Positions 43,099 to 57,233 of a stretch of 64,000 nucleotides of DNA are shown piece after piece. Below the pieces are notes generated by a model. That model worked only from the letters and a program-made list of their open reading frames with translations. It did not search any database and was not told where the DNA came from. Each line of letters begins with the position of its first letter. Within the stretch, counting starts at the first letter, position 1. The translations under genes and the position numbers were made by a program. The DNA comes from Deltaproteobacteria bacterium (GTDB lineage: Bacteria > Desulfobacterota > Desulfobulbia > Desulfobulbales > JAGXFP01), in NCBI GenBank assembly GCA_020056965.1, contig JAGVGT010000024.1:62001-126000 (forward strand), given 5' to 3'.

Positions 43099-45123
43099 TC
43101 AGACCAGGAGAAGTTCGACGACCTCGCCAACCTCGCTGATCGTGATCACCTTCAGACTGTTGGCCAGGGCCGGGGGCATTTCCTTGAGATTGCCCAGATT
43201 TTTTTCGGGGAAGATCACGGTTTTGATCCCGGCCCGGCGGGCGGCCATCATTTTTTCCTTGATGCCGCCCACCGGCAGGATGCGTCCGGTCAGGGTCAGC
43301 TCGCCGGAGAGGGCGATGTCAAGCCGGGCCGGCCGTTTGGTCAACAGGGAGAGCAGGGCGACGGCGATGGTCAGTCCCGCCGAGGGGCCATCCTTGGGAA
43401 TGCCGCCGCCGGGGATATGGATATGGATATCGGTGTTCTCGAAAAAGTCAGCCGGGATGTTGAACCGGGCCGTATTGCTGCGCAGATAGCTTAGGGCGGC
43501 CTGGGCCGATTCCTTCATCACCTCGCCCAGGGAACCGGTGAGAATCAGATTGTTGTGGCCCTGCATGATGGTCGCTTCGACAAAGATGATCTCGCCGCCC
43601 ATGCCGGTCCAGGCCAGGCCGGTGGCGACCCCGATCCGTTCCTTGAGTCCGGCGGTTTCCTGAAAGTACTTACGGGGACCGAGCAGTTCCTCAACCTTTT
43701 CCGGGGTAATGCTCTGAACCGTTTCCGGGGCGGTGGCCTGCTGTTTGAGGATCTCTCGGGCCGTCTTCCGGCAGATGGCGGCAATCTGGCGCTGGAGATT
43801 GCGCAACCCCGCTTCCCTGGTGTACTCGGTGATGATCTTTTCGATGGCCGGGGCGGTGAAGGTCGGTGACCAATCGTTCAACCCCGCTTCCCGGATGGCG
43901 CGGGGAATCAGATGGTGCCGGGCAATCTCCGCCTTTTCTTCGAGCATATAGCCGGAAAGATAGAGCACCTCAAGACGGTCCAGCAACGGGGCGGGGATGG
44001 TATCGACGCTGTTGGCGGTGGCGACGAACATCACCTTCGAGAGGTCAAAGGGGACATCCAGGTAATGGTCGGTGAAATGGGCGTTCTGCTGCTGATCAAG
44101 GACCTCAAGCAGTGCTGCGGCCGGGTCGCCCTTAAACTCACCGCTGAGCTTGTCGATTTCGTCCAGCATGAACACCGGATTCCTCGATTCGCAGCGACGG
44201 ATTTCCTGAATGATCCGCCCGGGCAGAGCGCCGACATAACTGCGCCGATGGCCGCGAATTTCCGCTTCGTCCTTGATGCCGGCCAGGGACAGACGGATGA
44301 ACTTCCGCTCCAGGCTGCGGGCAATTGATTTCTGCAACGAGGTTTTGCCGGTCCCGGGCGGGCCGACCAGGCAGAGAATCGGTCCCCTGTTCTCAAGTCC
44401 GGCCGTTTTTTCGGCCAGGGCCTCCCGGATGGTCTGGCGCAACTCGTCAAGTTTTAAGGGTTTGGCGAGGACATGGTAGGAACCCTTGCGCATGGCCTGG
44501 ACCGCTGTCGGCATGGTGGCGTGGCCGGTAACCATGATGATGGTGGTTTCCGGGCTGATCACCTTGGCGCCTTCCAGGACCGCCAGACCATCAACTTTTT
44601 CCATCCTGTAGTCAGTGACCACCACGTCAAAGCGCTCGGCTGCCATCAGGCGGAGCGCTTCCTCGCCGTTGGCCGCCGGCTTGACCAGATAATTTTCCTG
44701 GCTCAGAACGTGTTGGAGATTGCGGCGGGCGATCTCATCGTCGTCAACCACCAGAATTTTTGGTCGAGAGGAGCTTTTGAGAATCCGCACCGCCAAGTGC
44801 TCCAGGATCCGCTCCTTGATTTCGGTCAGGCCGAAATGTTCCTGGTCGAGGATGCGCTCGGCCCTTTCGATGTCGAGGTTGTCCGGAGTGGTTTTGTGCC
44901 AGGGCAGGCTGATCAGATAATTCAGGTAGTTGACGCCGATGGTGTATTCGGCGGCATCGACGTTGCTTTTGGCCAGAACGGCCAATTCGTCGAGCGCTAC
45001 CTTTTCGATGTTGGCCGGCAGCGCGGCATTGAGGATCGACTCGCGAAGCAAATCAAGGTCGGAAGGGTCGCGGTCTTCAGCTGCCGGTCTGTCCGGTTCT
45101 TTTTCCTTGCCAAATATACGCAT
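43099..45123 (-). CDS. Lon-type (S16) ATP-dependent protease with internal response-regulator receiver domain
   Basis: Lon AAA+ (GPILCLVGPPGTGKTSL, IKDEAEIRGHRRSYVGALPGRIIQ) and Ser-Lys protease motifs (KDGPSAG, VGGIKEK). Full REC domain (PKILVVDDDEIARRNL...VVVTDYRMEK...MVTGHA...LAKPLK) encoded at about 44416-44760. Confidence 0.95.
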   Translation of the reverse strand: MRIFGKEKEPDRPAAEDRDPSDLDLLRESILNAALPANIEKVALDELAVLAKSNVDAAEYTIGVNYLNYLISLPWHKTTPDNLDIERAERILDQEHFGLTEIKERILEHLAVRILKSSSRPKILVVDDDEIARRNLQHVLSQENYLVKPAANGEEALRLMAAERFDVVVTDYRMEKVDGLAVLEGAKVISPETTIIMVTGHATMPTAVQAMRKGSYHVLAKPLKLDELRQTIREALAEKTAGLENRGPILCLVGPPGTGKTSLQKSIARSLERKFIRLSLAGIKDEAEIRGHRRSYVGALPGRIIQEIRRCESRNPVFMLDEIDKLSGEFKGDPAAALLEVLDQQQNAHFTDHYLDVPFDLSKVMFVATANSVDTIPAPLLDRLEVLYLSGYMLEEKAEIARHHLIPRAIREAGLNDWSPTFTAPAIEKIITEYTREAGLRNLQRQIAAICRKTAREILKQQATAPETVQSITPEKVEELLGPRKYFQETAGLKERIGVATGLAWTGMGGEIIFVEATIMQGHNNLILTGSLGEVMKESAQAALSYLRSNTARFNIPADFFENTDIHIHIPGGGIPKDGPSAGLTIAVALLSLLTKRPARLDIALSGELTLTGRILPVGGIKEKMMAARRAGIKTVIFPEKNLGNLKEMPPALANSLKVITISEVGEVVELLLV

Positions 45124-45256
45124 GGTCAACCAGTTCGGAATTGGCGGGGGCGCCTTAACCCTTTGCCGCCCCTTGCGGCGGCACATTTATAACTATATTG
45201 GTATCAAAAAGAAACACAACCTGCATTTTTGCCTAGTTGCACTCCGTCACTTTTCT

Positions 45257-48981: not shown

Positions 48982-49140
48982 ATTTCTTCGGTAGCGCCAA
49001 CTGTTTTCGAAAACCGGCCTGTTTATTGCCGCCCGGTTTAATCAGGCGAGCATCTGTGTTTGCATTCCAGTTGGTGAAGTTGTATCGCTATCGGTGAGTG
49101 GAGAAGTTCGTGATTCGTATAAGAAAATTTGGTGAGGAAA

Positions 49141-49716
49141 ATGCTGAAAACTAAATACGGCCTGGGTTTGATCTTAGTCGTGCTGTTGCTCTTGCCGCCC
49201 AACCCGGCTTGGGCCGGATTATCCGAACTGGCCCACCCCGGGCGGACCGGGGCGGGGCTGACCTGGGGGCACAGCTATGATCCCAGCCCCACCTTCGCTT
49301 TCGCCCAGTTGACCGGAGTCCTGCAGTATGACTATGATCGGGTCTGGTTCCACCGCGCCCCGGAGCCGCTCTATTTCAAGTTGGAGGGTAGTCTGGGGCC
49401 GGCCTCTTACCAAAGCAACGAGCGGCTTCTGGCCTCAGTCAACATGTTGGCCCAATATTACCTGGCCCCGGCCGATGCCCTTCTTCGTCCATACATGGAG
49501 GCGGGCATCGGCCTGATCTACAGTGACTTCCAGGGTGAGGGGCAGGGGTTGCGGCTCAACTTCAACCCCCAGGCCGGTCTGGGCTGTGACTACCATATCC
49601 CGGCCGGAACCATCTATTTCGGCAACCTCCGACTCCACCATCTTTCCAACGGCGGTCTGCATCGCGATAATCGTGGCGTCAACTCGTTGCTGCTGCAGAT
49701 CGGCCGCTACTTTTGA
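49141..49716 (+). CDS. PagL-like acyloxyacyl hydrolase (lipid A 3-O-deacylase family)
   Basis: Signal peptide; short beta-barrel; C-terminal LRLHHLSNGGLHRDNRGVNSLLLQIGRYF matches the PagL His/Ser region. Confidence 0.85.
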   Translation: MLKTKYGLGLILVVLLLLPPNPAWAGLSELAHPGRTGAGLTWGHSYDPSPTFAFAQLTGVLQYDYDRVWFHRAPEPLYFKLEGSLGPASYQSNERLLASVNMLAQYYLAPADALLRPYMEAGIGLIYSDFQGEGQGLRLNFNPQAGLGCDYHIPAGTIYFGNLRLHHLSNGGLHRDNRGVNSLLLQIGRYF

Positions 49717-49871
49717 GGTTCGCTCGTTCTGCCATTCGCTAAATCATCCCGGAAAATATTTCACTTCACCGTCGGCCCGGGACGATGATACTATCACGGT
49801 TACTTGCCTGCGTACTTGGCGGGTTCACTAAGAACCGCCTTAAACATTAATCAAAAAACAGGGTGAATGTG

Positions 49872-50306
49872 ATGAAAGGATCTAGACTGCTGTTAATCTG
49901 TGGTTGTCTGCTGGTGCTGTTTGCCGGCTTTGCCGCCAAACAGTCCCTGGCCGCTGCCGAGGCCCGCCAGGATGTGCTTTACACCTGCGCCTGCGGTGAC
50001 CAGTGCAAATGCAATTCGGTCAGCACCGCCCCCGGCGACTGTAAATGCGGCAAACCCATGAAGTGGGGCCATGTTCTGAAGAGTGAGGGTAATGAGGTCC
50101 TCCTTTGCCAATGCGATGAGGGTTGCACCTGTAGCCTGGATTCCAAGGATTCGACCAAGTGCGGTTGCGGTAAGACGGTCAAACGGGTCAATCTGGCCGG
50201 GAAAGGTATCTATTTTTGTAACTGCGGCGGCTCCTGTATGTGCAACACGGTTTCCTCCGAGCCCGGCAAGTGCAAGTGCGGTATGGATCTGAAAAAAGTC
50301 GATTAA
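49872..50306 (+). CDS. Exported Cys-rich triple-repeat (metallothionein-like) protein
   Basis: Signal peptide; three exact CxCx3CxCx9CxCG units (18 Cys after the signal). Confidence 0.85.
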   Translation: MKGSRLLLICGCLLVLFAGFAAKQSLAAAEARQDVLYTCACGDQCKCNSVSTAPGDCKCGKPMKWGHVLKSEGNEVLLCQCDEGCTCSLDSKDSTKCGCGKTVKRVNLAGKGIYFCNCGGSCMCNTVSSEPGKCKCGMDLKKVD

Positions 50307-50327
50307 ACAGTCAAATCCATAGTTGGT

Positions 50328-50362
50328 AACGGGCAGGGCAATCTCCGGATTCCCTGCCCGTT
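50328..50362 (+). terminator. Hairpin downstream of the Cys-rich gene
   Basis: aacgggcaggg / ccctgcccgtt 11-bp perfect arms; weak T tract. Confidence 0.6.
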
Positions 50363-50384
50363 CCTTTATAGACGGAAATTCGGC

Positions 50385-50975
50385 ATGGAAACGATCGAGG
50401 CCCAAGTCAGACGGTTGGTGGCCGAGGCGATTGCGGTGGTGGATTACGACCCCCGGTGGCCGGCGAGCTTTGCCGCCGAAAGGGACCGTCTGCGCGCCTG
50501 TCTGCCGGGGGAACTGCTCGGGCGAATCGAACATTTCGGCAGTACCGCCGTGCCGGGGCTGGCCGCCAAACCGATCATCGACCTGCTGATTGAAGTGAGC
50601 TCGCTGGCTGAAACCAAAAGGAGGATCGTGCCGCTCCTCGTCGGTCAGGGCTATGAATATCTCTGGCGACCCAGCTGGGGCAATGACGTGCCGCCCTTCT
50701 ACGCCTGGTTCATCAGACGCGACCAGACCGGGCAACGCACCCACCACCTGCACATGATCGAAAAAGACTTTGCCCACTGGGACCGGCTGGGCTTCCGGGA
50801 CTATCTGATCAACCATCCCGACCAGGCTGCGGAATATGGCGCATTAAAGCGGCGGCTGGCTGCGGAACATCCCCATGACCGGGTGGCCTATACCGAGGGA
50901 AAAGGTTCATTCATCGCGGGGATCATGGCCGTGGTTGAAAGGGAGCAACGGTTGATCAGAATGCTACCTGGATAA
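50385..50975 (+). CDS. GrpB (UPF0157) family protein
   Basis: VDYDPRWPASFAAERDRLRACL...IEHFGSTAVPGLAAKPIIDLLIEV. Confidence 0.95.
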   Translation: METIEAQVRRLVAEAIAVVDYDPRWPASFAAERDRLRACLPGELLGRIEHFGSTAVPGLAAKPIIDLLIEVSSLAETKRRIVPLLVGQGYEYLWRPSWGNDVPPFYAWFIRRDQTGQRTHHLHMIEKDFAHWDRLGFRDYLINHPDQAAEYGALKRRLAAEHPHDRVAYTEGKGSFIAGIMAVVEREQRLIRMLPG

Positions 50976-54529: not shown

Positions 54530-55888
54530 TCAGAAGATTACGGCCAGATAGGTCAGCAGCAGGGTGACGATCAAGAGGTTGATGCCGATAAAGTTCTTGA
54601 GTTTGACGATGCCCTCGAAGTCTTCCAGGCACAGGCGCCAGAGGATATAGGCGCCGGCGATGGCCCCGTTCAGCATGAAGAAGGCCGAGAGAATCTGCAC
54701 CGGAAAATCGGGGATGGTGAAGGAGAGGTGGTTCAGCCAGGAGAGTCCGAACTGGCGACCAAAAGTGGGCAGAAAGTTGCCGATGCCGGCGGCAAAGCCG
54801 GACATCCGGTAAACCAGCTCGCCGGTGAAGGCCATGGGAATCAGGATTGGCACCAGCGGTGAGAACCGGCCGAACATGGGATCCTCGTTGATCCCGAAGA
54901 GGCGGGACCCGAATTTGATCATGGCCAGAATCACCAGGAAACCGGCCACCAGCAAGAGGCTGAAGGAGGCGGTGTCCGGCAGTCCCAGCCACGACTCAAA
55001 AAGCTTGTAAGGTTCCTTGTAGCGAAAAAAACGGGCCAGCTGCGAGCCGATCAGGAAGGGGACGATGTAAGTGCAGGTGATATAGCGGCCCTTGTTGCGG
55101 ATCAACTCCGAGTAAGGGTTGCGCAGGAGCAGTTGGGGCGAATCGAGCCGGCAGAGGGGCAGGCAGTGGCCGCAGACCAGGCAGTGCAGATTGTTTTGGA
55201 CGCTGTAGGCCCCGAGATATACCGGGCAACCCCGTTTTTCGCCGGTGCCCTTCTTGCACGCGAAGTTGTCGCAGACCCGGCATTTTTCATGGTCGGGCCG
55301 GAACTCGATGATCGACAGGGTGGCCGCTGCCCCGCTGATCCGCCCCAGGGGGCAGAGATGGCGGCACCAGGCCTGGCCGGGGAAGAGCACCGCCAGTAAC
55401 GCCGAACCGGCGACGATGGTCAGGACCAGCAATGAGGTGCCGACCGGCGAGCGGTCGAGCCCGGCCACCACCTCGATCCAGATGATCAGGGCCAGCAGGA
55501 TTACCGAGGTATACACGCCGTATTTCTGAAGAAACTTGGGCACCGGCAGATTAAGGGTCAACCCCCGGCGCTGCAGGAAGACCCCGAGGCCGGGAAAAGG
55601 GCAGATTCCGCACCACATGCGGCCCACGAAGAACCAGCTTAAAACGATGGCCGGCCAGAGCAAGCCCCAGGTCAGAAAGACCGCGATATTGCGGGTCGGG
55701 TCGCGGGGGCCGAACAGGCCGGAGATCACTACCAGGAAGAACAGTACGTCACCGCCGGTCCGCAGATAGGCGTAATGGTGGCGGGCGGCCAGGAAGCGGC
55801 GCACCCCCGGAAAGATCCGGAACAGGTCGAGCCGCTCCGCCTCCGCCGACGAGATCAGGCTCTTAATGGCCCTGGTCCACCAGAGCAC
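54530..55888 (-). CDS. NapH-like membrane 4Fe-4S protein
   Basis: WCGICPFPGLGVFLQ, WCRHLCPLGRISGAAA and Fe-S region CRVCDNFACKKGTGEKRGCPVYLGAYSVQNNLHCLVCGHCLPLC; multiple TM helices. Confidence 0.88.
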   Translation of the reverse strand: MLWWTRAIKSLISSAEAERLDLFRIFPGVRRFLAARHHYAYLRTGGDVLFFLVVISGLFGPRDPTRNIAVFLTWGLLWPAIVLSWFFVGRMWCGICPFPGLGVFLQRRGLTLNLPVPKFLQKYGVYTSVILLALIIWIEVVAGLDRSPVGTSLLVLTIVAGSALLAVLFPGQAWCRHLCPLGRISGAAATLSIIEFRPDHEKCRVCDNFACKKGTGEKRGCPVYLGAYSVQNNLHCLVCGHCLPLCRLDSPQLLLRNPYSELIRNKGRYITCTYIVPFLIGSQLARFFRYKEPYKLFESWLGLPDTASFSLLLVAGFLVILAMIKFGSRLFGINEDPMFGRFSPLVPILIPMAFTGELVYRMSGFAAGIGNFLPTFGRQFGLSWLNHLSFTIPDFPVQILSAFFMLNGAIAGAYILWRLCLEDFEGIVKLKNFIGINLLIVTLLLTYLAVIF

Positions 55889-57018
55889 TAGCCGAGATCC
55901 TCAAGGGTGATGGTAATTTCCAAGGGGGCCTCGTCGCGCATGATGATCAAGATCACTTTGGTGCCCACCTTGAATTTTTCCAGCTCGCGCCGCAATTGAT
56001 CGTAGTCGTCAACCTTCTGCCCGTTCACCCCGACAATGATATCGCCGGGCACCACCTCGCGCCCTTCCTGCCGGGTGCCCCGCAAACCCGCCTTTTCGGC
56101 GGCACTGCCGGGCTGGACCCCGACGATCAATATCCCTTTAATGCCCAACTGCGCGGCGATCGTGGGGGCGGCCAAGGTCACCCCCAGTCCGGGCCGACTG
56201 AGCTTGCCGTGGCGGATCAGTTCCGGCGCCACCCGGTTGATTTCGGCCACCGGGACCGCGAAACCGATCCCTGAACTGGCCCCGGAAGGGCTGTAGATGG
56301 CGGTATTGATGCCGATCAGGCGGCCCGAGCTGTCCAGCAGCGGCCCTCCGGAGTTGCCGGGGTTGATCGCCGCGTCGGTCTGGATTACCCCCTGGATGGT
56401 GCGGCCGGTGGCGGCCTTGATCTCGCGGCCCAAGGCGCTGACAATCCCCGAGGTAATGGTGTGGTCAAGCCCGAAAGGGTTGCCGATGGCGAAGACCTTC
56501 TGGCCGACCTGCAACGACTCGGAATCACCGACCATGATCGGGCTGAGGAGTTTGGCCGGGGCCTCGATCTGCAACACGGCCAGGTCCTTGTCGGGTGCGG
56601 CCCCCACCAACCTGGCCTTCCAGACCGAGTTGTCACCCAAAGTCACCTCGACCCGGCTGGCGTCCTCGATGACATGGAAATTGGTGACCACCCGCCCTTG
56701 TTTGTCCCAGATAAAGCCGCTGCCGGTGCCGCGGGGAATCTCATAGGCATTGAGGCTGAAGAGGCCCCGCCGTAACTCGATGCTGCTGATGTAAACCACC
56801 GAAGGCGAGGCGGACTTGAACAGGGCAATGGTATTGCGCTCGTCGGCCGCCAGATCGCCACGGGGGGTCACGGCGCGGGATTGGGCATCGGGGTCGGTGA
56901 CTGGATTGACCGCCTTTTCGGAGCGGTAATAGAGAAACCAGGCGACCAGAAAGATCAGCGCCAGAAAGAGAAATGGTGAGAACTTGCTGCGAAAGCTGGG
57001 GGATTCCTGACCGTGCAT
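55888..57018 (-). CDS. HtrA/Deg-type serine protease with PDZ domain
   Basis: N-terminal TM anchor; GTGSGFIWDKQGRVVTNFHVI, DLAVLQI, TDAAINPGNSGGPLLDSSG; C-terminal PDZ. Confidence 0.95.
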   Translation of the reverse strand: MHGQESPSFRSKFSPFLFLALIFLVAWFLYYRSEKAVNPVTDPDAQSRAVTPRGDLAADERNTIALFKSASPSVVYISSIELRRGLFSLNAYEIPRGTGSGFIWDKQGRVVTNFHVIEDASRVEVTLGDNSVWKARLVGAAPDKDLAVLQIEAPAKLLSPIMVGDSESLQVGQKVFAIGNPFGLDHTITSGIVSALGREIKAATGRTIQGVIQTDAAINPGNSGGPLLDSSGRLIGINTAIYSPSGASSGIGFAVPVAEINRVAPELIRHGKLSRPGLGVTLAAPTIAAQLGIKGILIVGVQPGSAAEKAGLRGTRQEGREVVPGDIIVGVNGQKVDDYDQLRRELEKFKVGTKVILIIMRDEAPLEITITLEDLG

Positions 57019-57233
57019 TTTCAAAGCCTTATCGAAGTGGACCTGTCGGGGTAATGGTAACCAGCCGCCCCTTGGTAATGGGTTTGCCAAGGGGGCATGG
57101 AATGTGCCGAAAAGTCACCAATATAAGAGGCGCCGACCAAAGGTCAAGGACAAACCCTGCTGAAGACCAACATGGAGGGAGAACAGTTTAGGAGAAGTCG
57201 GACTTGTCGGACCGGTCAGACAGCTATAATCTT

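Follow-up and report, generated by a model that had tools for sequence, protein, structure and literature searches.

An exported protein with three six-cysteine units, a candidate metal-thiolate buffer of the bacterial envelope

A contig of a Deltaproteobacteria bacterium, of which we analyzed a 64,000-nucleotide stretch (the window), encodes an exported 144-aa protein in which a CxCx3CxCx9CxCG unit occurs three times (49872..50306, + strand). The cysteine pattern is not a product of chance, and the protein belongs to a genuine family that is under selection. What might such a protein do? The best explanation, which we hold with about even confidence, is that it is a reduced cysteine-cluster metal buffer located in the envelope, most likely for Cu(I), with approximately one Cu4S6-type cluster per unit. 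The parts of this explanation differ in strength. Metal binding by the units is strongly suggested by their conserved CxC-rich sequence, their SpCuf1-like core and their link to the HMBD domain; copper rather than Zn or Cd is moderately favored as the cargo; the stoichiometry of one Cu4S6-type cluster per unit is a prediction only, and weakly held.

The coding sequence was identified by ORF scan and is supported by orthologs at 61-69% identity and by the pattern of codon-position differences. It starts at an ATG at 49872 and stops at a TAA at 50304-50306. A possible ribosome-binding site, AGGGTGA (49860..49866, +), precedes the ATG by 5 bases, and a likely intrinsic terminator, cgggcaggg / ccctgcccg with a 13-nt loop and a following ttccttta, was read from the sequence at 50330..50368 (+). 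The automatic terminator scan found none there because the loop is too long for it. This element suggests that the transcript ends just 3' of the three-unit gene. An antisense ORF at 49893-50816 (-) overlaps two genes that have relatives or Pfam domains and was taken as spurious. Elsewhere in the window, reading by eye revealed a Lon-type protease ORF (43099-45186, -) with an apparent inserted response-regulator receiver domain, an unusual fusion, in which the sequence KILVVDDDEIARRNLQHVLSQENYLVKPAANGEEALRLM... is followed by the ATPase and Lon protease parts, as well as a membrane polyferredoxin-like protein with NapH/NosR-like cysteine motifs (54530-55888, -) adjoining a DegP/HtrA-like protease (55888-57090).

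All three units lie on the + strand. Unit 1 (C39-G60, 49986..50051; CACGDQCKC-x9-CKCG) is defined by sequence and family alignment and runs C39-x-C41-x3-C45-x-C47-x9-C57-x-C59-G. Unit 2 (C79-G100, 50106..50171; CQCDEGCTC-x9-CGCG) runs C79-x-C81-x3-C85-x-C87-x9-C97-x-C99-G, and unit 3 (C116-G137, 50217..50282; CNCGGSCMC-x9-CKCG) runs C116-x-C118-x3-C122-x-C124-x9-C134-x-C136-G. The ORF reading thus bears out the exact within-unit spacing claimed in the preliminary description of this DNA, and likewise its count of 18 cysteines past the signal peptide, to which C10 and C12 within the signal peptide are to be added. Its term "perfectly periodic" holds inside the units but is slightly overstated for the array, which lacks strict periodicity since successive units start 40 and then 37 residues apart.

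The protein begins with a Sec-type signal peptide, approximately residues 1-31 (49872..49964, +), which was read by eye and from alignments; it has a Lys/Arg n-region and a hydrophobic core, with cleavage near SLAAAEA/RQ. Together with the signal peptides or lipoboxes of the relatives, it upholds the earlier claim of export. In family alignments many relatives carry an LxGC lipobox where the window protein reads LFAGF, with Phe replacing the lipobox Cys. Many relatives are therefore probably membrane-anchored lipoproteins, while the window protein, whose signal-peptidase site is probably an ordinary one, is likely to be soluble in the periplasm.

Relatives were detected in 11 of the 58 genomes searched, the closest full-length ones at 61-68% identity to the window protein, and a scan limited to a single genome for each species yielded 36 loci in Thermodesulfobacteriota, Nitrospirota, Acidobacteriota and Myxococcota, under labels such as Desulfobulbaceae, Desulfocapsa, Desulfuromonadales, Nitrospirae, Holophagae and Thermoanaerobaculales, among others. 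The host genomes are mostly metagenome-assembled and belong largely to anaerobic lineages. Within the window's own order occurrence is sporadic, with a match in 17 of 258 genomes when two-unit relatives (see below) are counted. One genome (G011) holds three diverged three-unit copies (L005, L012 and L015; 63, 51 and 37% identity to the window protein). In an alignment of 38 sequences, where mean column identity is 53%, 16 of the 18 unit cysteine columns show no variation, and conservation is still 90% or higher at the remaining two, C47 and C99. Between the window gene and five relatives, differences at third codon positions (0.53-0.65) exceed those at second positions (0.20-0.26) two- to threefold, as purifying selection on the protein would give. 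The family tree is shallow and poorly resolved; horizontal transfer is possible, though the tree does not demonstrate it. Plasmid searches returned no match for either the three-unit or the two-unit group, viral contigs contained no match for the three-unit group, and PHROGs gave a single weak and meaningless one. A 680-aa open frame that contains the family domain at one locus (G331/L033) is probably not a fusion: its upstream part resembles read-through of a GC-rich frame overlapping another gene, and an internal Met start with its own signal peptide is possible. Our literature search found no paper describing the three-unit family.

A phylum-wide search uncovered a second group of approximately 125 aa, with two units joined by a short beta-like linker. 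The profiles of the two groups align along their length (hhalign 99.9%, E 6.7e-31), and by this measure the two-unit group is homologous to the three-unit group over its length. In the profile alignment, the first and third units of the three-unit proteins pair with the first and second units of the shorter ones, so that the difference is the middle unit (unit 2 of the window protein), which the sister group is missing. None of the six unit cysteines varies among 30 units sampled from the two groups; the profile built from these 30 sequences (29 columns, one sequence shortened by one residue to fit) served for searching only. AlphaFold2 predicts the window protein to be all-beta except for the signal helix, with a mean pLDDT of 83 against 81 for the sister protein, and the predicted strands at 35-39, 62-72 and 75-79 are nearly identical between the two. 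By sequence, neither group has a solved relative. Foldseek at E up to 0.001 returned no solved-fold match for either group, its weak matches being often SH3/Tudor-like with E > 0.3, and fold searches of PDB and viral libraries gave nothing significant.

Where could such units have come from? HMBD (PF19335) is a heavy-metal binding domain found in CusB-type adaptors and P-type ATPases. The window protein does not match it up to E 10, and seven of the 38 members match weakly within an E limit of 1, the best at 3e-4. PF19335 scores 15.8-18.5 bits in those relatives whose matches were read in detail, below the curated cut-off of 23.6 bits, and these sub-threshold matches fall on the second half of a unit, at the unit 3 position in L033 and L034. 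Unit 3, which ends PGKC-K-CGMDL, is also the most HMBD-like part of the window protein. Aligning the unit and HMBD profiles gave a score of 21.95, with only the PGxC-x-CGMxL half aligned; controls with shuffled HMBD columns reached at most 11.4 with cysteines fixed and 14.9 with all columns shuffled, which makes a distant HMBD origin plausible for that half. Like the units, HMBD has a short Y-x-C start and a PGxC...CGMxL ending, and some proteins likewise hold tandem copies of it, among them a small, probably exported protein with two canonical HMBD units (L096, G023:C225, a 155-aa ORF), which may parallel the two-unit group. It differs in having CPMHP and CPxC, with three cysteines and approximately four fewer residues, where the units have CxCx3CxC and CxC, and the CPMHP...CPxCGM motif of HMBD is absent from the units. 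A distant relationship of the units to HMBD is thus plausible, whereas membership is not claimed, given that the first half, CxCx3CxC, differs from CPMHP.

Gene neighborhoods offer evidence on the cargo. In the window, the gene lies between PagL and GrpB with no copper gene beside it; PagL, a lipid A 3-O-deacylase (PF09411, 61 bits; 49138-49716, +), is directly upstream on the same strand and GrpB is downstream. Elsewhere on the contig are a NosL gene and a CusCBA-like set with HMBD. The latter is a CusC-CusB-CusA-like efflux operon outside the window (L188, G000:C52:38760-45490), whose CusB bears an HMBD (YTCAMHP...CPICGM) and a degenerate second HMBD copy (WVSSMDPTYIRDAPGKDNMGMDL). No conserved neighborhood of the three-unit group was found except among close relatives, most loci share no neighbor, and upstream regions compared by eye revealed no common operator. 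Of some fifty loci, only about five have copper neighbors, and copper families make up the smaller part of the neighbors scanned. NosL, a periplasmic Cu(I) chaperone (PMC7558416), is the next gene at one three-unit locus (L055/G312, 16 bp) and one two-unit locus (L151/G138, 77 bp); against 0.024 adjacent NosL genes expected from the NosL counts of 26 host genomes, these two correspond to a P value of about 3e-4, which is generous because the association was tested after being noticed. Multicopper oxidases adjoin L150 and L157, the second of which also adjoins a CusB bearing HMBD and YHS domains, and SCO1 is near L049.

These neighborhoods point modestly to copper; the preliminary description had left the metal unspecified. 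The alternatives that remain are, in our order, Zn/Cd binding, disulfides and Fe-S. A sponge for Zn(II), Cd(II) or Hg(II), or for soft metals in general, holding Zn2Cys6-like clusters and protecting cells in metal-rich sediments, is possible but rather unlikely: six cysteines per unit would fit Zn2Cys6 or Cd clusters too, the sequences of HMBD and metallothioneins are not metal-specific, and most loci have no copper gene nearby, yet copper genes are the only recurrent metal-related neighbors seen, and no Zn/Cd regulator or exporter was seen recurring beside family genes. Might the cysteines instead stabilize a small beta fold as disulfides, in a structural envelope protein that binds no metal? 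Export, an even number of cysteines and a confidently predicted scaffold would suit that role, which we nevertheless consider improbable. CxC pairs are ill suited to disulfide formation and often serve as metal ligands, the hosts are largely of anaerobic lineages, and both the HMBD-like CGMxL ending and the copper-gene neighbors speak for metal. Only a slim chance is left to a role in carrying iron-sulfur clusters, persulfide or electrons for the envelope sulfur metabolism of sulfate reducers and their relatives; sulfur- and metal-cycling lineages are among the hosts and the sequence is compatible with Fe-S ligation, but no unit has the CxxC spacing of ferredoxins or rubredoxins, no such family matches, and the family occurs in Nitrospirota and Acidobacteriota too.

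How would a copper buffer of this kind work? The REP copper-binding motif of the fungal copper sensor SpCuf1, CXCX3CXCX2CX2H (PMC4992176), shares an identical CxCx3CxC core with the units; SpCuf1 is an unrelated nuclear transcription factor, and the shared motif would be convergent. In model studies of Cu-metallothionein complexes, Cu4S6 is a preferred core (PMC4755600), and the six thiolates of a unit would suit such a cluster. We propose that a small beta scaffold carries three six-cysteine knuckle units, which either derive from an HMBD-type domain or are its distant relatives, and that, in mainly anaerobic hosts with a reduced envelope, each unit would hold a d10 metal cluster. With Cu(I) as the likeliest metal, a protein could hold up to about 12 Cu, and the buffer would either sequester periplasmic copper or keep it ready for cuproprotein assembly. 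More tentatively, the relatives as a whole may constitute an unnamed and widespread family of envelope, often lipid-anchored, cysteine-cluster copper buffers, in which a diverged HMBD-like unit was multiplied on a beta scaffold with no recognized solved counterpart: a periplasmic metallothionein analogue of anaerobes that would feed or protect cuproprotein assembly. If true, this would reveal how anaerobes deal with copper or other soft metals beyond the cytoplasm. It would also put a name on proteins that have no family model and that occur in four or more phyla of sediment and groundwater bacteria, and it would mark a possible evolutionary route from a heavy-metal domain, HMBD, to a metal store.

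How does the family compare with known systems? The preliminary description had held a match to an already characterized family to be decisive against its reading, and no Pfam or NCBIfam family reaches its cut-off for the three-unit family. Known metallothioneins are largely cytoplasmic, SmtA/BmtA and MymT being small cytosolic examples. Bacterial metallothioneins (SmtA/BmtA, PF02069; MymT) resemble the window protein in being very Cys-rich, with CxC motifs and presumed clusters of d10 metals, but the window protein is exported, is 144 aa long, has three regular units and is predicted to form a beta scaffold. PF02069 matches neither the window protein at E up to 10 nor the 38 members at E up to 1. 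The best Pfam score in the window protein belongs to plant Ec metallothionein, PF02068, at 24.7 bits against a cut-off of 31.8; its alignment positions vary between members, and at this sub-cut-off score the match looks compositional, that is, CxC-driven. The earlier label "metallothionein-like" thus survives as an analogy, and not as kinship, in view of these profile results and of a predicted beta scaffold in place of a loop-only peptide; an exported multi-unit metal-thiolate protein is still the best reading. The family is best read as one that would act like a metallothionein yet belongs to no known metallothionein family.

Csp1 and bufferins are the main known cases of exported copper stores with multiple cysteines. 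Csp1 relies on Tat export and folds as a four-helix bundle; the window protein has a Sec signal and a predicted all-beta structure, and does not qualify as a Csp. What the two would share is the role, Csp1 being an exported, multi-Cys, Cu(I) storage protein (PMC7558416). Bufferins (the RiPPs Buf1 and Buf2) are Sec-exported, Cys-rich periplasmic copper chelators whose six-Cys domains are sometimes duplicated; some are lipoproteins and some are encoded apart from their enzyme (PMC12452194). These likenesses notwithstanding, a bufferin-like RiPP, in which an MNIO enzyme would convert the cysteines of the window protein to copper-binding heterocycles, is scarcely credible: bufferins are modified by MNIO enzymes, of which the window's genome (G000, 89.9% complete) has no PF05114 match, neither the Buf1 profile PF10048 nor NCBIfam matches the window protein, and no maturation genes recur beside family loci. 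If the buffer reading is true, the three-unit family would be a third, apparently unrelated exported multi-cysteine solution besides Csp1 and bufferins.
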